NCBI RefSeq assembly: GCF_014205165.1
Contig: NZ_JACHMZ010000001.1
Span: forward strand, 186,001 to 250,000
Origin: Micromonospora carbonacea
GTDB lineage: Bacteria; Actinomycetota; Actinomycetes; Mycobacteriales; Micromonosporaceae
Reading direction: 5' to 3'
DNA: 64,000 nt
Positions 49,394-58,742 of the stretch are shown one piece after another (positions within the stretch are counted from its first letter, which is position 1; each line of letters opens with the position of its first letter). Position numbers and translations under genes: made by a program. A model generated the notes under the pieces. The model saw only the letters and a list, made by a program, of their open reading frames with translations. It made no database searches and had not been told where the DNA came from.

Positions 49394-50135
49394 CAATCAC
49401 TCGCAGGATGATGTCGGGGTCAAGGGCGTCGTTGGCGGTGCTGACGTGCACGTCGAGGTGGCCGGCGGCCCGGAGGTCGCCGACCAGGATCCGGGTGACG
49501 CCGAAGTGCAGCCGGGTACGGGCCGAGATCTCCGCCACGGAGATCGGCTCTCCACAGAGCGCGATGATCGCCTGGAGCTCGGGGGCGAGCCGGGAGACCG
49601 GCCCCGCGCCCCGGACGCCGGGACCGGGGCGGGCGGTGACCTGGGTCTCCAGGCTGATCGCCGGGTCCACCCCGGCCACCCTGCCGGAGGTCAGCACGAA
49701 CGGGCGTGGCCCCGTCGGCAGGTGCGGATCGGGAGCGCCCAACCGGCCGGGCAGATCGTGCGCCGGGCTGCCGGGCGGGCCGTCGCCAGGACCGCCGGGG
49801 AAGCCGGTGCCGCCTTCCGGGAAGCCGCCGGGGAGGTCCGGGCCGCCTTCCGGCCAGCCGGTGCCGCCGCCGGGGAAGCCGAGGCGGCTGCTCGGGAAAC
49901 CGGGGCCGCCGGCCGGGAGGCCGCCGCCGGGGAAGCCGGGGCCGCCGCCCGGGAAGCCGGAGGTGCCGTCGGCCGGCCCGGGAGCGCCGCCCGGGCCGCC
50001 GGGGTGGCCGGGGCCGCCCGGGAAGCCGCCCGACCCGCCCGTCCCGTCGTCGTCCGGGGACTGCGCCCGCAGGTAGGGCCGGATCCGGACGACGGGTTCC
50101 GGATCCGGCCCGGTGCCGGCGACCTCCGGGCTCAC
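49371..50135 (-). CDS. Conservon DUF742 protein, CvnC type, with GFPGG repeat region
   Basis: A 254-residue protein. A short head (VVRIRPYLRAQSPDD) is followed by about 95 residues of glycine-, proline- and phenylalanine-rich repeats (GFPGG, GPGFPGGG, GGTGFPGG). The DUF742 winged-helix domain then follows: LAPELQAIIALCGEPISVAE, then ISARTRLHFGVTRILVGDLR and NDALDPDIILRVIDGL. GTG 50135 overlaps the stop of the roadblock gene (GTGA). The usual family length is about 120-150 residues, so the repeat region is an expansion. It is likely a DNA-binding or adaptor subunit of the conservon. Confidence 0.93.
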   Translation of the reverse strand: MSPEVAGTGPDPEPVVRIRPYLRAQSPDDDGTGGSGGFPGGPGHPGGPGGAPGPADGTSGFPGGGPGFPGGGLPAGGPGFPSSRLGFPGGGTGWPEGGPDLPGGFPEGGTGFPGGPGDGPPGSPAHDLPGRLGAPDPHLPTGPRPFVLTSGRVAGVDPAISLETQVTARPGPGVRGAGPVSRLAPELQAIIALCGEPISVAEISARTRLHFGVTRILVGDLRAAGHLDVHVSTANDALDPDIILRVIDGLRAIS

Positions 50136-50596
50136 TGTTGTACGGCGTTCTTCAGCTCGGCGATCAGTCGCGGGGTGAGGGCGCTGCCGGCCCGCCCGGC
50201 GAAGAGGGTCATCTCGTAGGCCACGGTGCCGAGGTTCGCCGACCGGTCGGCCACCACACCGAGCACCGAGCCGGCGCTGATGGAGCTGATCAGCAGGTAG
50301 CCGTCGGCCATGTCGACGATGACCCGGTTCAGGCCGCCGAGGGCGTACCAGCTCGCGGCCCCGCCGGCGAGGCTCGTCATGCCGGAGACGACGGCGGCGA
50401 GGCGCTCGGCGTTGGACCGGTCCTTGATCGCCGACATGGCCATCAGCAGCCCGTCGGAGGAGACCGCGATCGCCTCCATCACACCGGCGGTGCTGGACGT
50501 GAACGAGTCCAGCAGCCAGTTGAACGTGCGGGCCTCGGGGCTCAGGTCGGTGGGGTGCTGGTGCTCGATGTTCTCGTGCAGGTACGGGCTGGTCAC
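50132..50596 (-). CDS. Conservon roadblock/LC7 protein, CvnB type
   Basis: A 154-residue protein with the roadblock/LC7 fold: TFNWLLDSFTSSTAGVMEAI, then AVSSDGLLMAMSA, then GYLLISSISAGSVLGVVADR, as in MglB-like regulators of small GTPases. GTG 50596 overlaps the sensor kinase gene by four bases, and the DUF742 start overlaps its stop, so the four genes are coupled. By analogy with MglB it may act as activator or exchange partner for the CvnD GTPase. Confidence 0.94.
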   Translation of the reverse strand: MTSPYLHENIEHQHPTDLSPEARTFNWLLDSFTSSTAGVMEAIAVSSDGLLMAMSAIKDRSNAERLAAVVSGMTSLAGGAASWYALGGLNRVIVDMADGYLLISSISAGSVLGVVADRSANLGTVAYEMTLFAGRAGSALTPRLIAELKNAVQQ

Positions 50597-53409
50597 CGTG
50601 TTGATCCCTCTTCGTAGCGGCGGTCAGGACGGGCTTCACGCAGCGCGCGGGCGACGCCCGCCTCGAACTGGTTGATGAGGTCGCGCACCTCTCCGGGGTC
50701 GCCGGGGTCGGACGGGGGAGCGGGCCTGGGTGGCGGGACGGCCAGGTTGGCACCGGGGACCCGTCGGGTCAGTCGGGGAGGGTCGGCGACCAGGGGAGCC
50801 GCCACCGGGGCCGCAGCACCCGGGGGAGCCGCCACCGGGCGGCCCGGCATCGGGGGAGCCGCCGGGGGGTGCAGTTCGGCCCGGCGTACCCCGGCTTCGA
50901 ACTGCTCGACCAGCGCGCGGGCGGCGGCCGGGTCGGCGGTGGTGGCGTCCACCGGGCCGACGACCGGGCCGGTGTGCGGCAGGCTCGCGCCGGGCACCCG
51001 CTGGCGGATGCCCGCGCCCCGCGACGTCCCGCCCGACCCGCCGGGCGGCGGCGCGGAGCCGGGCGGCGGGGAGCCGGGCTGCGGGCCGGTCGGGAAGGAG
51101 AGGTGCCGGGGCCGGGCCGGCAGGAGCGGTGTGCCGGCGGCCCCGCCGACCGGACCGGCGGCACGGGAAGGCCGGCCGGCGCCGGGGGCCGCCGGGGGAG
51201 CGGCGGCGTCGGGCGCGACCGGGGTGCCGCCGACGGTCGGCGGGGCGTCCAGGGTGGGGGCGCCCGCCCGTCCGGACGTGGCGGCCGGCGGCTCGACGAC
51301 CGCCTCGAAGGCGTTCCAGGAGTCGCCCGACTCCATCGACCGGGTGGCGCGGCTGAGCAGCTCGCGGTCCACGCCGAGCGCCACGCCGAGCGCCACGGTC
51401 CCGTCCACCGACCCGTCCCCCGGACCGCCGGCGGGCGCGGGGTGGGCGGTGGCGGCGACGGCCAGCGCCCGGCCGGGACCGGTCGGCTGCGGACGGCCGG
51501 ACGCGGCCGGCCGGTCCGGCGTGGCCGTCCCGGTCGCCGCCGGCCCGGCCTGGCCGGCGGGCGGCACGACCAGCAGCGCCGACGGGACCTCCAGCCGGGC
51601 GGTGACGCCGCCGCCGGTGGTCGGGACGAGGTCCACCGTCCAGCCGTGCCGGCGGGCGAGCCGGCCCACCACGAAGAGGCCGAGCACCTCGGTCGGGACG
51701 AGGTCGAGCCGTTCCCGGCGGGTCAGCCGGGCGTTCTCCTCGGCCAGCCGCTCCTCGGTCATGCCGATGCCGTGGTCCACCACGGACAGCCGCATGCCGT
51801 GCCCGGTCGGCTCGGCGGTCACCACCACCCTCGTGTGCGGCGGGGAGAAGACGGTGGCGTTCTCCATCAGCTCCGCCAGCGCCAGCACCAGGTCGCCGAC
51901 GGTGGACGGCGCCGCCGACACCCCGGCCGGGACCTGCACGTCGACCCGGGTGTAGTCCTCGATCTCGCCGAGCGCGAGCCGGACCACGTCGGTCAGCGGC
52001 ACCGGGGCCACGTGCCCGTCGGCGCCGGTCGAGCCGGAGAGCACCACGAGGCTGCCCGCGTTGCGGCGCAGCCGGCTGGAGACGTGGTCCAGCCGGTAGA
52101 GGTGCTCCAGCCGCCCCGGGTCGGTCTCCTGCTGCTCCAGCCGGTCGATGAGCGCGATCTGCCGGCCCACCAGGTTCTGCGTACGACGCCCGACGTGGCC
52201 GAACATCTGCGCCACGTTGCGTCGGCCGGCGACCTGCCGCTCCACCAGCCGGGCGGCGGTGCTCTGCACGCGTTCGAACGCGCGGGCCAGGTCGCCGATC
52301 TCGTCGCGGCCCCGGACGTCGACCGGGTCGAGGCGGATCGGCGGGACGTTCTCGCTCTCGTCGTCGGCGACCCGCACCAGCTCCGCCTCGGCGGCCCGGG
52401 CGACCCGTTCGGCGGAGCGGGTGAGCCGGGTCAGCGGGCGGGCGACCAGCCGGGCCACCGCCATGCTGAGCAGCACCACGAGGAGCATGACCAGCACCGC
52501 CGTGACGCCGACCACCCAGGCGGCGGTGAGGGCCCGCTGCTCCTCCTCGCGCACCTGCGTGGTGACGTCCGCGGCGATCTTCTTCTCGACGAACTGGCCG
52601 AGGGTGGTCATCGACTGGACGGAGGGGAAGAGGGTGTCCAGGGGCACGCTGCTGAGGGCGGCCACCGGGTCCTTCTCGCTGTCGACGACGAACGTCGGGC
52701 CGGTCCGGGCGGCCACCGCCGCGTCGTCCAGCAGCGCCAGCTCCAACTGCTCGGGGGTGACCAGGCTGCGGAACCGGTCGGTGTCCACGGTCAGGGCGGC
52801 CATGCAGGCGATGTAGCTGGCGATCGCCTTCGGGTCGCTGGTCTCCTTGACCAGGACGATCAGGGTGGCGCACGCGCCCAGGCTCTCGTCGGCGCGCAGC
52901 AGGCCGTCCAGGGCGAGCACCTGCTGGCCGACCGGGGTGGTGGTGTCCACCTTCCAGGCCAGCCGCAGCGAGTCGATCAGCTCCACGGCGAGCGGGCCGA
53001 AGGCTTCCATGACCCGCACCGGGGTGGCCCGGCCGGCGAGCACGGCGGCGCGTACGTCGGCGAGCCCCCGCACCTGGTCGAGCGCGAGCCTGACCCGGTC
53101 GGTGAGCTGGCCGCCCAGCTCGGCGCGGATGTCGGCGACCCGGTCGTCCACGGTGGCCGACTTCTGGATCACCTCCGTGCGGGACGCCCGGCCGAGCAGC
53201 AGACCGACGGAGAGCAGGCGCTCCTGCTGGAGGTCCTGGACCAGGGTGCCGACCCGGCTGGCCACCCGGACGGCCTCGGCGGTGTCCGCTGCCCGCCCGG
53301 CGGTGGCGACCCGGTCGAGGACGATCGGCACGGCGAGCCCGACCATGCTGAGCAGCGGGACGATCACCAGCAGGGCGAGCTTGCCCCGGATGCGGAGCCT
53401 AGCGAGCAT
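50593..53409 (-). CDS. Conservon sensor histidine kinase-like protein, CvnA type
   Basis: A 938-residue membrane protein. A first helix (LALLVIVPLLSMVGLAVPIV) leads to a nitrate/nitrite-sensing (NIT)-like extracytoplasmic domain (VGTLVQDLQQERLLSVGLLL). The second helix is WVVGVTAVLVMLLVVLLSMA, then HAMP, then a helical H-box region and HATPase: LALAELMENATVFSPP (N box), VVDHGIGM (G1), LGLFVVGRLARRHGW (G2). No obvious phospho-acceptor His is seen. The C-terminal 280 residues are Pro/Ala/Gly-rich with a repeated short motif (ALVEQFEAGVRRAELHP, LINQFEAGVARALREA). It heads the coupled conservon genes. Confidence 0.92.
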   Translation of the reverse strand: MLARLRIRGKLALLVIVPLLSMVGLAVPIVLDRVATAGRAADTAEAVRVASRVGTLVQDLQQERLLSVGLLLGRASRTEVIQKSATVDDRVADIRAELGGQLTDRVRLALDQVRGLADVRAAVLAGRATPVRVMEAFGPLAVELIDSLRLAWKVDTTTPVGQQVLALDGLLRADESLGACATLIVLVKETSDPKAIASYIACMAALTVDTDRFRSLVTPEQLELALLDDAAVAARTGPTFVVDSEKDPVAALSSVPLDTLFPSVQSMTTLGQFVEKKIAADVTTQVREEEQRALTAAWVVGVTAVLVMLLVVLLSMAVARLVARPLTRLTRSAERVARAAEAELVRVADDESENVPPIRLDPVDVRGRDEIGDLARAFERVQSTAARLVERQVAGRRNVAQMFGHVGRRTQNLVGRQIALIDRLEQQETDPGRLEHLYRLDHVSSRLRRNAGSLVVLSGSTGADGHVAPVPLTDVVRLALGEIEDYTRVDVQVPAGVSAAPSTVGDLVLALAELMENATVFSPPHTRVVVTAEPTGHGMRLSVVDHGIGMTEERLAEENARLTRRERLDLVPTEVLGLFVVGRLARRHGWTVDLVPTTGGGVTARLEVPSALLVVPPAGQAGPAATGTATPDRPAASGRPQPTGPGRALAVAATAHPAPAGGPGDGSVDGTVALGVALGVDRELLSRATRSMESGDSWNAFEAVVEPPAATSGRAGAPTLDAPPTVGGTPVAPDAAAPPAAPGAGRPSRAAGPVGGAAGTPLLPARPRHLSFPTGPQPGSPPPGSAPPPGGSGGTSRGAGIRQRVPGASLPHTGPVVGPVDATTADPAAARALVEQFEAGVRRAELHPPAAPPMPGRPVAAPPGAAAPVAAPLVADPPRLTRRVPGANLAVPPPRPAPPSDPGDPGEVRDLINQFEAGVARALREARPDRRYEEGSTR

Positions 53410-54631
53410 CGAAGGGCCCCCACCGCTCGGCGCTGGTGGGGCGGCCCTGCCCGGCCGGCTGGAGCATCCGGGGCTCGACCTGGGCGACCGTGCCGGCCGG
53501 GGCGGACCCGTGGCGGTCGGCCGGGGCGTCCCAGCCGGTCTCGTCGGCCGCCGGTGGGCCGGTGTCCCCGCCGGCCGGTCGGCGGTCCCGCCCGGTCCGG
53601 CGGTCCCGGGCGGTGATCAGCACCGCGGCGAGCGCGCCGAGCAGCAGGACGGCCAGGATGGCCGCCCCGGCGGCGAGCCGGCGGTCCCGGTCGAGCTGGT
53701 CGATGCGGTCGGTCAGCAGCGCGTCCAGCTCGTCGAGGATGACGGGCTGGAGCTGGCGGGCGGCCTCCTGGGCGGCGGTGCGGGCGGCGATGAGGTTGGT
53801 GAGCGCGCGGGCGGTCGCCGCCTCGTCCTCCAACCGGACCGCCGAGGTGGGGGCGGCGAGCGCGCCGAGCCGCTCGATGGAGCGCTGGTAGGTGTCCAGC
53901 GGGGCGAGCACGTTCGCGCCGAGCTTGGTGCTGTCCGTGCTGTCCACGGCCGCGCGCAGGTTGTTGATCAGGTCGTTGGCGGGGCTGATGGCGCTCGTCC
54001 ACAGGGCGCCGAGCTGGGACACCATGGCGATGCGCTGGGCGTCGGGCAGCTCGGCGGCGACGGCGGCCAGGTCGCCGAGCCGGCCGGTGGCCACGAGCGA
54101 TTCGGGCAGCTCGTCGCTGACCGCGTCCTGGAGGTAGTACGAGTCGGCCTGCTGGTCCCGGATCAGCCCGGAGGCCTCGCGCACCTTGCGGTGCAGGGCC
54201 AGCAGCAGGTCGGTGGCCTCGCCGTACGCGGCGAAGGTCGCCTGCGGGTCGGTCAGCCCCTTCTCGGGCAGCGCCTCCAGCTTGGCCCGTAGGCCGGTCC
54301 ACCGCTCGTGGGTGCGCAGCGCGTCGCCGAGGCGGGCGTCCGAGGCGGCGACCTCCTCGACGGCCTTGCCCAGGGATTCCCGGGAGACGGTCCGGCCGGC
54401 GACGGCGGCGGACTGCGCCTCGACCAGGGCGAGGGTCAGCGGGCCGAGGGAGCGCAGGTACTCCACGCCGAGCCGCTCGCGGACCATGAGGTCGCGTTCC
54501 TCGCCGGTGTGCCGGCGCTGCTGGACGAAGAGGAACGCCACCGGGGCGAGGAGCGCCACCACGAGCACCAGCGGCAGGATGCGGCCGGTGCGGTTGGGCC
54601 GTCGGGGGCCCCGCTGCGCGGGGACGGTCAT
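53399..54631 (-). CDS. Additional membrane sensor (two-helix extracytoplasmic domain protein)
   Basis: A 410-residue protein with helix 1 (ILPLVLVVALLAPVAFLFV), an all-helical extracytoplasmic region of about 270 residues (LVEAQSAAVAGRTVSRESLG, DSYYLQDAVSDELPESL, LGALWTSAISPANDLINNL) and helix 2 (LAAGAAILAVLLLGALAAVL), then a 75-residue cytosolic tail without kinase motifs. The layout resembles a methyl-accepting or NIT-type sensor lacking its output domain. ATG 54631 follows GGAGGAGAA. Its end overlaps the CvnA-type start by 11 bases, so it belongs to the same operon. It may be a ligand-sensing partner. Confidence 0.78.
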   Translation of the reverse strand: MTVPAQRGPRRPNRTGRILPLVLVVALLAPVAFLFVQQRRHTGEERDLMVRERLGVEYLRSLGPLTLALVEAQSAAVAGRTVSRESLGKAVEEVAASDARLGDALRTHERWTGLRAKLEALPEKGLTDPQATFAAYGEATDLLLALHRKVREASGLIRDQQADSYYLQDAVSDELPESLVATGRLGDLAAVAAELPDAQRIAMVSQLGALWTSAISPANDLINNLRAAVDSTDSTKLGANVLAPLDTYQRSIERLGALAAPTSAVRLEDEAATARALTNLIAARTAAQEAARQLQPVILDELDALLTDRIDQLDRDRRLAAGAAILAVLLLGALAAVLITARDRRTGRDRRPAGGDTGPPAADETGWDAPADRHGSAPAGTVAQVEPRMLQPAGQGRPTSAERWGPFDAR

Positions 54632-54999: not shown

Positions 55000-57870
55000 A
55001 TGAGATCGCCGTTGTCGGCCGCACCGGTCCGACGGGCCCTGGCCACCCGCCCCCGCCGGATCGTCGCCGGCTCGGTGGCGGTCGTGCTGCTGGCGGCCGC
55101 CGTGCTCTGGGCCGCCCGACCCGGCGAGGCCGGCTTCCGCGCCGAGCCCGCGATGATCACCGTGCGCTCCGGGCCGGCCGGCGACGAGCCGGTCGACCTG
55201 GACACCACCTTCTACCTGCCCGACGGCGCGACGGCGGACCGCCGGGTGCCGGCGGTGCTGCTCGCGCACGGCTTCGGCGGCACCAAGGAGTCGGTCCGTT
55301 CCGACGCCGAGGAGCTGGCCGGCCAGGGCTACGCGGTGCTCGCCTGGACCGCGCGCGGCTTCGGCCGCAGCGGCGGCCAGATCCACCTGGACAGCCCCGA
55401 CCACGAGGTGCGGGACGCGCAGCGGCTGCTGGACTGGCTGGCCGCCCGTCCCGAGGTGCGCACGGACGCCGCCGGCGATCCCCGGGTCGGGGTGGTCGGC
55501 GGCTCGTACGGCGGCGGCCTGGCCCTGCTGCTCGCGGCCCAGGACCAGCGGGTCGACGCGATCGTCCCCATGATCACCTGGAACGACCTGTCCCGCGCGT
55601 TCCTGCCGGAGAGCACCGGCGGGCCCGCCACCTCCGGCGTGTTCAAGAAGGGCTGGGCGGGGCTGTTCTTCGGCGGCGGCGGCAACGCCGGCTCCGGCCC
55701 GGCCGGGCTCTCCGGCACCTCCGCCGCCCAGCCCGAGGGCAACCCGGCCTCGGCGGGGCCGCCGAGCCCCGCGCCGGGCGCCGGGCCGGGCACCGGTTCC
55801 GGGCGCGCGCCGGCCGGGGCCGCCGACCCGTCCTGCGGCCGGTTCGCCGCCGACGTCTGCGCCGCGTACCTGCGCATCGCCACCACCGGGCGGGGCGACC
55901 AGGCGGCCGTGGACCTGCTCCGCCGGTCCAGCCCGGCCGGCGTGCTCGACCGGATCAAGGCGCCCACCCTGCTGGTGCAGGGCGAGGCCGACACGCTGTT
56001 CCCGCTCGCCGAGGCCGACGCGAACGCGCGCGGCATCGCCGCCGCCGGCACCCCGGTCCGGGTGGCCTGGTTCACCGGCGGCCACGACGGCGGCGACGGG
56101 CCGCGCAACGACTCCGACCGGGTCAAGTACCTGACCGTCCAGTGGCTCGACCACTACGTCAAGGGCGAGGGGGCGGCCCCCGGCGACGACTTCACGTACT
56201 CGCGGATCGCCGGTTTCGACGCCCTCGACCGCGGCCTGGTCGCCACCGGCTACCGCACCACCGACTACCCGGGGCTGGCCGGCGACGCGCGCCGCGAGGT
56301 CGCGGTGGCCGGCCCGGCCCAGCCGGTCGCCAACCCGCCCAACGGCAACCCGGCGGCCATCTCCTCGATCCCGTTCGCCGGGGCGCTCGGCTCGCTGCTC
56401 GGCGGCGTGGCCGGCGACGTGCCCGGCCAGCACGCCCGGTTCGAGTCCGCGCCGCTGGGCGAGGCGGTGGACGTGGCCGGGTCGCCGACCGTCACGCTGC
56501 GGGCCGCGTCGGCCAGCGGCGAGGCGGTGCTGTTCGTGAAGCTCTACGACGTCGACCCGCAGGGCGCGGCGACCCTGCCCAACGGGCTGGTCGCGCCGGT
56601 CCGGCTCACCGGCCTGCCGGCCGGGATCGACGCCGCGAAGCCGGTCACGGTCACCCTGCCCGCGATCGTCCGCCGGGTCGAGGCCGGGCACCGGCTGCGG
56701 GTCGTGGTCGCCACGTCCGACCAGGCGTACACGACCCCGGCCGAGCCGGCGGTCTACACCGTGGCGGCCGGTGACGGCCCGCTCGTGCTGCCGACCGTGG
56801 CCGGCGAGCCGATCCCCACCACGGCCGTCGTCTGGCGCTGGGTGCTGGCCGGGCTGCTGGCCACCATCGCGGTCGGGCTCGTCGCGGTCGTCCTGATCGC
56901 CCGCCGCCGGCACCGCCGCCAGGACAGCTCCGTGCATCCCGAGTACGCGGGCACGCCGCTGGCCGTGCGCCAGCTCCGCAAGGAGTACGCCGACGGCTTC
57001 GTCGCCGTGTCGAACGTCGACTTCGAGGTGCACCCCGGTCAGGTCGTCGGCCTGCTCGGGCCCAACGGCGCGGGCAAGACCACCACCCTGCGGGTGCTGA
57101 TGGGGCTCACCCAGCCCACCGCGGGCGAGATCTACGTCTTCGGCCGGCGGCTGGTGCCCGGCTCGCCGGTGCTGTCGCGCATCGGCGCGCTGGTCGAGGG
57201 CCCCGGCTTCCTGCCGCACCTGTCCGGCCTGGACAACCTGAAGGCCTACTGGCGGGCCACCGGCCGACCGTGGGAGGACGCGCACTTCGACGAGGCGCTG
57301 GAGATCGCCGGGCTCGGCGACTCGGTGCACCGCAGGACCCGCAAGTACAGCCACGGCATGCGGCAGCGCCTCGCCATCGCCCAGGCCATGCTCGGCCTGC
57401 CCGAGCTGCTGGTGCTCGACGAGCCGACGGACGGCCTGGACCCGCCGCAGATCGCCGAGATGCGCCGGGTGCTCCAGCGCTACGCCACCGACGGCCGGGC
57501 GGTGCTGGTCTCCAGCCACCTGCTCGCCGAGGTGGAGCAGACCTGCACGCACGCGGTGGTGGTCAACAAGGGGCGGATCGTCGCGTCCGGCCCGGTGGAG
57601 GAGATCGTCGGCGAGTCGCCGAGCGTGCTGTTCGACGTGACCGACCCCGACGCGGCGCGCGACGTGCTGGGCCGGCTGGCCGGCGTGACCGTGCTGCCCG
57701 ACGCCGAGGGGCAGCTGGTGGTGGACACCAACGGCACCGCCCGCAGCGAGGTGGTGGCCGAGCTGGTCCGGGCGGGGATCGGGGTGGACCGGGTGGTGCC
57801 GCGCCGCCGCCTGGAGGACGCGTTCCTCGCCCTGGTGGGCGAGAACTCTCGGGGAAGCGGGGACCGGTGA
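55000..57870 (+). CDS. Fusion of exported CocE/S15-type hydrolase with ABC transporter ATPase
   Basis: A 956-residue single chain. An N-terminal signal anchor (IVAGSVAVVLLAAAVLWAA) exposes an alpha/beta hydrolase of the X-Pro dipeptidyl-peptidase/CocE type: PAVLLAHGFGGTK, nucleophile Ser169 in GGSYGGG, Asp331 in GEADTLFPL, His362 in GGHDGG, then the PF08530-like beta-sandwich (VTLRAASASGEAVLFVKLYD). A transmembrane helix (WVLAGLLATIAVGLVAVVLI) at about 612-640 leads to a cytosolic ABC ATPase: Walker A GPNGAGKTT (Lys693), YSHGMRQRLAIAQA, VLDEPTDGLDP. The ATG of its permease overlaps the stop by one base. A Gly/Ala/Pro insert (about 225-280) interrupts the hydrolase cap. Confidence 0.93.
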   Translation: MRSPLSAAPVRRALATRPRRIVAGSVAVVLLAAAVLWAARPGEAGFRAEPAMITVRSGPAGDEPVDLDTTFYLPDGATADRRVPAVLLAHGFGGTKESVRSDAEELAGQGYAVLAWTARGFGRSGGQIHLDSPDHEVRDAQRLLDWLAARPEVRTDAAGDPRVGVVGGSYGGGLALLLAAQDQRVDAIVPMITWNDLSRAFLPESTGGPATSGVFKKGWAGLFFGGGGNAGSGPAGLSGTSAAQPEGNPASAGPPSPAPGAGPGTGSGRAPAGAADPSCGRFAADVCAAYLRIATTGRGDQAAVDLLRRSSPAGVLDRIKAPTLLVQGEADTLFPLAEADANARGIAAAGTPVRVAWFTGGHDGGDGPRNDSDRVKYLTVQWLDHYVKGEGAAPGDDFTYSRIAGFDALDRGLVATGYRTTDYPGLAGDARREVAVAGPAQPVANPPNGNPAAISSIPFAGALGSLLGGVAGDVPGQHARFESAPLGEAVDVAGSPTVTLRAASASGEAVLFVKLYDVDPQGAATLPNGLVAPVRLTGLPAGIDAAKPVTVTLPAIVRRVEAGHRLRVVVATSDQAYTTPAEPAVYTVAAGDGPLVLPTVAGEPIPTTAVVWRWVLAGLLATIAVGLVAVVLIARRRHRRQDSSVHPEYAGTPLAVRQLRKEYADGFVAVSNVDFEVHPGQVVGLLGPNGAGKTTTLRVLMGLTQPTAGEIYVFGRRLVPGSPVLSRIGALVEGPGFLPHLSGLDNLKAYWRATGRPWEDAHFDEALEIAGLGDSVHRRTRKYSHGMRQRLAIAQAMLGLPELLVLDEPTDGLDPPQIAEMRRVLQRYATDGRAVLVSSHLLAEVEQTCTHAVVVNKGRIVASGPVEEIVGESPSVLFDVTDPDAARDVLGRLAGVTVLPDAEGQLVVDTNGTARSEVVAELVRAGIGVDRVVPRRRLEDAFLALVGENSRGSGDR

Positions 57871-58742
57871 TGACGCAGTCGTCTTCCACGGTGGGCGCGG
57901 CTGCCGGCTACCGGCCGTCGGCGACCCTGCCGTTCGCGGCGGAGTTCCGCCGGCAGGCGTCGCGGCGGCGTACCCAGCTCGCGCTCGGGTTCATGGTGCT
58001 GCTGCCGCTGATCGTGCTTGTCGCGTTCCAGTTCGACTCCGGCAACGACGACGACGGCGGCGGGGGCGAGTTCTCCAGCCTCGCCGACCTGGCCACCTCG
58101 GGCGGGCTCAACTTCACCCTCTTCTCGCTGCTGGTCTCGGCGTCGTTCCTGCTGGTCGTGGTGGTGGCGCTGTTCTGCGGCGACACGGTGGCCAGCGAGG
58201 CGAGCTGGGGCAGCCTGCGCTATCTGCTGGCCGTGCCGGTGCCCCGGGCCCGGTTGCTGGCGGTGAAGCTGCTGGTGGCGCTCGCGTACTCGGGGCTGGC
58301 CCTGCTGCTGCTCGCCGGCACCGCCCTGCTCGCCGGCACCCTCCGCTACGGCTGGGAGCCGCTGCGCAGCCAGGTCTCCGCCCAGCTCGACCCGGCCGAG
58401 GGGCTGCTGCGGCTGCTGGCCGTGCTCGGCTACCTGGCGGTCGTCCTGCTGGCGGTGGCCGGGCTGGCGTTCCTGCTCTCCGTCGTCACGGACGCCGCGC
58501 TCGGCGCGGTCGGCGGCGCGGTGCTGCTGTGGATCCTGTCCAGCATCCTGGACCAGATCACGGCGCTCGGCGGGATCCGGGCGTTCCTGCCGACCCACTA
58601 CGCCAACGCCTGGCTGGGCCTGCTGTCGACGCCGGTGCAGACCGACGACCTGGTGCGCGGCTGCATCTCCGCGATCGCCTACGCCACCCTGTTCTGGTCG
58701 CTGGCCTTCTGGCGCTTCACCCGCAAGGACGTCACGAGCTGA
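57870..58742 (+). CDS. ABC transporter permease partnered with the hydrolase-ATPase fusion
   Basis: A 290-residue ABC-2 type permease with six helices: LALGFMVLLPLIVLVAF, LFSLLVSASFLLVVVVALFC, LLAVKLLVALAYSGLALLLL, LLAVLGYLAVVLLAVAGLAF, LGAVGGAVLLWILSSILDQI and a last one before FTRKDVTS. CGDTVASEASWGSLRYLLAVP is the conserved cytosolic coupling region. ATG 57870 overlaps the fusion gene by one base, making a two-gene unit. The permease and ATPase presumably export a substrate or product of the extracellular hydrolase. A GGGCAGGT hairpin follows at 58757-58797. Confidence 0.9.
   Translation: MTQSSSTVGAAAGYRPSATLPFAAEFRRQASRRRTQLALGFMVLLPLIVLVAFQFDSGNDDDGGGGEFSSLADLATSGGLNFTLFSLLVSASFLLVVVVALFCGDTVASEASWGSLRYLLAVPVPRARLLAVKLLVALAYSGLALLLLAGTALLAGTLRYGWEPLRSQVSAQLDPAEGLLRLLAVLGYLAVVLLAVAGLAFLLSVVTDAALGAVGGAVLLWILSSILDQITALGGIRAFLPTHYANAWLGLLSTPVQTDDLVRGCISAIAYATLFWSLAFWRFTRKDVTS

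Follow-up and report, generated by a model that had tools for sequence, protein, structure and literature searches.

A forward-strand gene of the soil actinobacterium Micromonospora carbonacea (55000-57867, with its stop codon at 57868-57870) encodes, in one chain of 956 residues, an alpha/beta hydrolase and an ATP-binding cassette (ABC) ATPase, and is followed directly by the gene for an ABC-2 (type V) permease. Coordinates refer to the window, that is, the whole stretch of 64,000 nucleotides analysed (positions 186001-250000 on one contig of 7.53 Mb), and all features lie on the forward strand unless stated otherwise; a search of the whole genome with the hydrolase part returned 1 match, this fusion. 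Taken from its N terminus, the product of the fusion gene (55000-57870), for which full-length homologues exist, consists of a first transmembrane helix (TM1), an alpha/beta hydrolase of the S15/CocE type, a PepX_C domain, a second transmembrane helix (TM2) and the ABC ATPase.

Anatomy of the fusion protein and its permease

Three Pfam-A domains, each above its gathering score, lie within this single frame: Peptidase_S15 (residues 65-199, E-value 4.9e-21), PepX_C (residues 476-583, 56425-56748, E-value 7.3e-14) and ABC_tran (residues 671-810, E-value 1.3e-29), and the gene sequence reads through the junction between hydrolase and ATPase with neither a stop nor a frameshift. Hydropathy analysis gave peaks at residues 21-39 and 615-633. 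The first is TM1 (55060-55116; helix 17-39 in the structure model), which follows an Arg-rich N terminus and may be either a signal anchor or a signal peptide. The second is the hydrophobic core of TM2 (helix 608-638 in the model; 56821-56913), which is followed by RRRHRR and, by the charge rule, would run from outside to inside, giving a protein with its hydrolase outside and its ATPase inside.

The hydrolase core (about residues 65-400; 55192-56199), recognised with Pfam, is modelled with a predicted local distance difference test score (pLDDT) mostly above 90. It holds the putative catalytic residues Ser169 (GGSYGG, 55504-55506), which aligns with GISYGAG of PaL lipase, Asp331 (GEADTLFP, 55990-55992) and His362 (GGHDGG, 56083-56085), assigned by homology and alignment; with this triad in place, and with S15 and PepX_C both above their curated scores, the protein falls within the S15/CocE-NonD class. 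A Gly/Pro/Ala-rich insert at residues 224-275 (55669-55824) is variable, unstructured in the model (pLDDT below 50 at residues 228-271) and largely absent from Streptomyces-type (f4/g7) and Tsukamurella members.

The ATPase half (residues 652-956; 56953-57867), comprising the ABC domain and a C-terminal part delimited by Pfam and further profile and structure comparison, has a Walker A motif (GPNGAGKT, residues 687-694, 57058-57081) and a Walker B motif (LLVLDEP, residues 803-809, 57406-57426) found by pattern, with K693 and E808 invariant, an ABC signature read from the sequence (YSHGM, residues 783-787, 57346-57360; Y783, S784, G786 and M787 invariant in 38 rows) and His840, also matched by pattern. 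The permease (57870-58742), whose start codon shares TGATG (57868-57872) with the stop codon of the fusion gene, has 290 residues and matches ABC2_membrane_2 (E-value 3.3e-13). Its model has the type V fold with six transmembrane helices, which together with the complete ATPase motifs places the pair among the ABC-2/type V exporters. It is not of the FtsX type (type VII), two ABC2_membrane families being its sole Pfam matches at an E-value of 0.001; type V chains also rank first in a fold comparison that on its own would not settle the permease type. The closest fold is that of NosY, a structure solved together with extracytoplasmic partners. NosD is not known to be a hydrolase. It is, moreover, a separate protein in NosDFY (PDB 7znq, 7qba and 7o0y), unlike the hydrolase fused to the ATPase here.

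An earlier reading of this DNA (the original prediction) had proposed a hydrolase and an ABC ATPase in one chain, with a complete Ser169-Asp331-His362 triad, an ATPase with its own complete motifs, a two-helix layout and a coupled permease gene. Each of these elements was recovered, the named residues in the places given: the three Pfam domains lie in one 956-residue frame across an intact junction, the triad and the Walker A, YSHGM, Walker B and His840 elements are present, the two hydrophobic peaks give the layout described, and the TGATG overlap and ABC2_membrane_2 match tie in the permease.

Distribution and conservation

Database searches with three queries yielded at least 354 distinct proteins which, read row by row, each contain PF02129, PF08530 and PF00005 in one chain, as a domain-architecture check suggested with the original prediction had called for. 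The M. carbonacea fusion alone gave at least 120 full-length matches of 925-990 residues with all three domains, belonging, where named among the matches listed, to Micromonospora and Verrucosispora. A Streptomyces-type query added at least 120 more full-length fusions, and a deep-branching query matched at least 120 entries, with Modestobacter, Geodermatophilus, Catenulispora, Hamadaea and Catellatospora among them. Relatives are encoded in 441 stretches of genome records; the best 80 of these 441, which were examined, are presumably all from Micromonosporaceae, to judge from our placement of the genera. The hydrolase finds a match at 1e-20 in 58 of 296 genomes sampled from the phylum Actinomycetota; leaving the window's own genome aside, 20 candidate places were taken by score and open-frame length, and 19 of these are fused, the remaining one (L131 in G258) being a hydrolase with CWB2. 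The architecture thus occurs in 20/296 genomes, own genome included, a count for which lower-ranked places were only partly examined and which leaves out, among others, G162:C8 and G157:C106. When the same genomes were searched with the permease alone, the top ranks were exactly these 20 genomes (E-values up to 3.4e-54), and the next two matches (G052 and G220, 42% identical) proved to be plain ATPase-permease pairs. Carriers include genomes of 1.7 Mb that belong to classes other than the window's (G024, G063 and G215). Fusion and permease are also adjacent in a Nonomuraea record and on a Tsukamurella plasmid record, where they are annotated as alpha/beta fold hydrolase and ABC transporter permease; plasmid searches returned these Tsukamurella and Nonomuraea fusions together with weaker-scoring matches in a Streptomyces and a Haloterrigena record. 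Outside Actinomycetota, the matches listed contain no named member save one UNVERIFIED_ORG Bacillus record, the chromosomes of other phyla not having been scanned.

The fusion lies in one frame in 101 of 102 loci, a set in which loci from sampled genomes may share species with those from named records; named Micromonospora, Salinispora, Actinoplanes, Nonomuraea and Tsukamurella records are part of this set. An assembly artefact or frameshift is thereby ruled out, as is the idea that the halves are separate genes in all relatives, for the loci examined; on this count and on that of 20/296 genomes, the original prediction was right to treat the fusion as genuine, and the architecture is conserved.

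Ser169, Asp331, His362, Lys693, Glu808 and His840 are invariant in all 354 listed proteins (240 and 114 in two checks) and in all 102 rows of a second set (101 loci plus the window), and a diverse 32-row alignment agrees on the triad and ATPase residues. In ten pairwise comparisons by simple counts, the ratio of nonsynonymous to synonymous substitution (dN/dS) was 0.05-0.30 in the hydrolase region, 0.20-0.38 in PepX_C and 0.07-0.12 in the ATPase; because it is low in both, the hydrolase and ATPase halves are under purifying selection. TM2, a region of 36 codons only, ranked highest among the five regions in 8 of 9 pairs for which its ratio was defined (0.37-0.71, once 1.39). From the end of TM2 to Walker A there are 51-64 residues in 31 of the 32 rows and 141 in the Nonomuraea fusion, about 88 of them extra residues between helix and ATPase. 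The high dN/dS of TM2 and this long linker mean that the connecting helix is better described as a tether than as a signalling lever, though the tight length outside Nonomuraea leaves room for coupling. The Nonomuraea linker (L082:3835-6735) is of low complexity.

Relatives and origin of the fusion

The closest solved relative of the hydrolase is PaL lipase (PDB 8yzn and 8yzo), in which the three triad residues align; it shares 22-23% identity and has no ATPase, and cocaine esterase CocE, alpha-amino acid ester hydrolase and X-Pro dipeptidyl aminopeptidase were likewise solved without one (15-22% identity). On the transporter side, plain ABC-2 exporters of Actinomycetota (20 unfused-permease loci, L183-L202) have permeases 31-42% identical to the one here and a related, adjoining ATPase in every case, joined to the permease once, with no hydrolase domain in any. 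The joined case, L200:4063-5883, places a plain-type ATPase and permease in one 607-codon frame, an alternative joining of the same parts. Conversely, no permease of the fusion-partner family was found in 20 unfused-hydrolase loci, three of which (L136, L137 and L139) hold ATPases of other kinds (58-99 bits); flanks in these unfused sets span about 0.2-6 kb and several stop where the contig does, which leaves room for a partner lying farther off. In 15 of 20 cases the open frame of the unfused hydrolase has 544-755 codons, in 17 of 20 the hydrolase is preceded by a hydrophobic peak, and two of the 20 carry CWB2 cell-wall domains. Two S15/CocE-type hydrolases of one genome (L133:5271-7916 and L134:3137-8236), with three CWB2 cell-wall-binding repeats, are a form of this enzyme class anchored to the wall.

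In a tree of the hydrolase, the 32 fused and 20 unfused rows split into two groups at 99/99. Taken singly, neither the ATPase tree (3 label changes) nor the permease tree (2) recovers a single fused clade; a joined alignment of both genes, from which the long rows L200, L201 and L197 were left out, places the fused rows on one side of a branch with support of 92/92, below the tool's star, with the plain pairs G052 and G220 outside. The simplest history, which the trees permit, would be one event that attached an exported hydrolase to the N-terminal end of an exporter's ATPase, with mostly vertical inheritance thereafter.

Eighteen hydrolase positions are conserved in the 32 fused rows and rare in the 20 unfused relatives, although they were chosen from conserved columns and the unfused set is more divergent, so that some differences are expected anyway. 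Five of the 18 fall within residues 461-477 (56380-56430), a hydrophobic loop ending in DxPGQ that is kept in fused and rare in unfused hydrolases (G461 in 31/32 versus 1/20 rows; Q477 in 32/32 versus 1/20). This loop is a candidate contact with the permease or the membrane, and the mean pLDDT of 51 for residues 461-470 in the monomer model would suit a surface that becomes ordered upon meeting either.

Possible function and gene neighbourhood

The nearest functional parallel is E. coli YbbAP-TesA, which also combines an ABC ATPase and permease with an extracytoplasmic esterase (PMC12646458); its counterpart in the system described here is a hydrolase domain with its triad, whose outer location and activity are predicted. 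YbbAP-TesA is proposed there to extract membrane-derived hydrophobic molecules and present them to the periplasmic esterase for hydrolysis, the extraction itself awaiting confirmation (PMC12646458), and it uses a type VII permease and a separate TesA of another hydrolase family, whereas here the permease is of the ABC-2/type V kind and a CocE/S15-type hydrolase is joined to the ATPase. Because the two differ in the kind of permease, the kind of hydrolase and the way the chains are arranged, the fusion system is not a member of that group, though by analogy it may work like it.

The reading we tentatively prefer, with confidence somewhat short of even, is that of a type V ABC exporter encoded by two genes, whose ATPase subunits each bear a tethered extracytoplasmic, lipase-like serine hydrolase acting on the exported or extracted substrate. 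As is usual in ABC transporters, the complex would contain the fusion chain and the permease in two copies each, so that its outer face would bear a pair of hydrolases; ATP hydrolysis would drive the permease to export an amphipathic ester- or amide-containing substrate, or lift it from the membrane, and the tethered hydrolase would cut it upon arrival. Sequence and models establish the architecture, the intact triad and ATPase residues, the permease fold and co-inheritance; the topology, the complex and the direction of transport we infer. Processing during export is plausible, and we would favour export or extraction followed by outer-face hydrolysis, on the model of YbbAP-TesA. Several points weigh against this. 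A shared fold is no proof of activity, and beyond the permease no neighbour is conserved among the loci compared that would hint at a substrate. With TM2 weakly constrained and the linker long in one lineage, the halves may merely share an anchor. Finally, a Cys pair (residues 279 and 287; 55834-55860) present in 120/120 Micromonospora-type and 114/114 deep-branching matches listed, possibly a disulfide lost within Streptomyces, occurs in only 41/120 Streptomyces-type matches listed.

The same weak constraint and long linker would be explained if hydrolase and exporter acted on different things and the fusion only set their ratio, which we regard as very improbable, since all 20 genomes with the closest permeases retain the fusion despite being ranked by permease alone, no split version was seen, and the next pairs, G052 and G220, branch outside the fused rows. 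Mechanical control, in which ATP binding shifts TM2 and toggles the outer hydrolase while nothing is transported, the mode described for FtsEX-EnvC and other type VII systems, would suit both the near-constant span from TM2 to Walker A and the likeness to NosY with its extracytoplasmic partners, but is improbable given the 141-residue span in Nonomuraea, the dN/dS of TM2 and a permease that is of the ABC-2 kind by Pfam. That span and those ratios also tell against a suggestion in the original prediction, that hydrolysis is sensed to gate the pump, which finds no support here.

Two further alternatives concern the cargo. Self-protection, in which an exporter of the bacitracin- or lantibiotic-immunity type rids the membrane of a toxic amphipathic compound, which is then destroyed by the outer hydrolase, draws on the best NCBIfam matches of the ATPase (TIGR03740, the lantibiotic protection subfamily, at 167.5 bits, then DrrA at 161.9), a weak MutG match of the permease (19.5) and the presence of carriers in Streptomyces and Micromonospora, genera known for antibiotic production. 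It is nonetheless unlikely, as these scores fall far under the curated cut-offs (309.75, 312.45 and 117.2, respectively), no biosynthetic or resistance neighbour is conserved among the loci compared, and the fusion occurs in the 1.7-Mb genomes outside the window's class. Export-coupled maturation, with the pump secreting a precursor (a peptide or acylated metabolite) from which the hydrolase strips a protecting group on exit, shares its anatomy with the preferred explanation, a hydrolase and an exporter ATPase in one chain; yet the loci compared have no conserved precursor gene or biosynthetic cluster next door, and a spread over several families would better suit a housekeeping substrate, which makes it about as improbable as mechanical control. 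Returning to hydrolysis of an exported or extracted substrate, a more specific version of it must be considered doubtful: a type V transporter hard-wired to an ecto-lipase would have arisen once in Actinomycetota for membrane cleaning or lipid processing, with loop 461-477 (DxPGQ) taking substrate from the permease, and would have reached the logic of YbbAP-TesA independently.

If the coupling is real, it would constitute a second, covalent way of linking an ABC motor to an outer esterase, and this in genera noted for their antibiotics; the single-chain form eases purification and testing. The sequences are already public under automatic names ("alpha/beta fold hydrolase", "ABC-2 type transport system ATP-binding protein") that hide the other half of at least 354 proteins. 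We found no account of a hydrolase-ABC ATPase fusion in the open-licence literature, though papers elsewhere are possible. An anti-phage role was rejected: PADLOC gave nothing but generic ATPase matches.

Across families, the permease is the sole shared neighbour of the fusion. Within Micromonosporaceae, sensor-type genes recur nearby, as does a gene that we take to encode threonine synthase; an amino acid permease and a VWA protein each occur in five Streptomyces-type loci. In two genomes of the same genus, the fusion is immediately preceded by a CWB2 cell-wall-binding protein (L118:9944-11119 and L130:6486-7595). In the window itself, a divergent upstream cluster on the reverse strand (50132-54631), read by eye, encodes a sensor-kinase-like protein, a small roadblock-like protein and a second membrane sensor-like protein, an arrangement that we take to resemble actinobacterial conservons.
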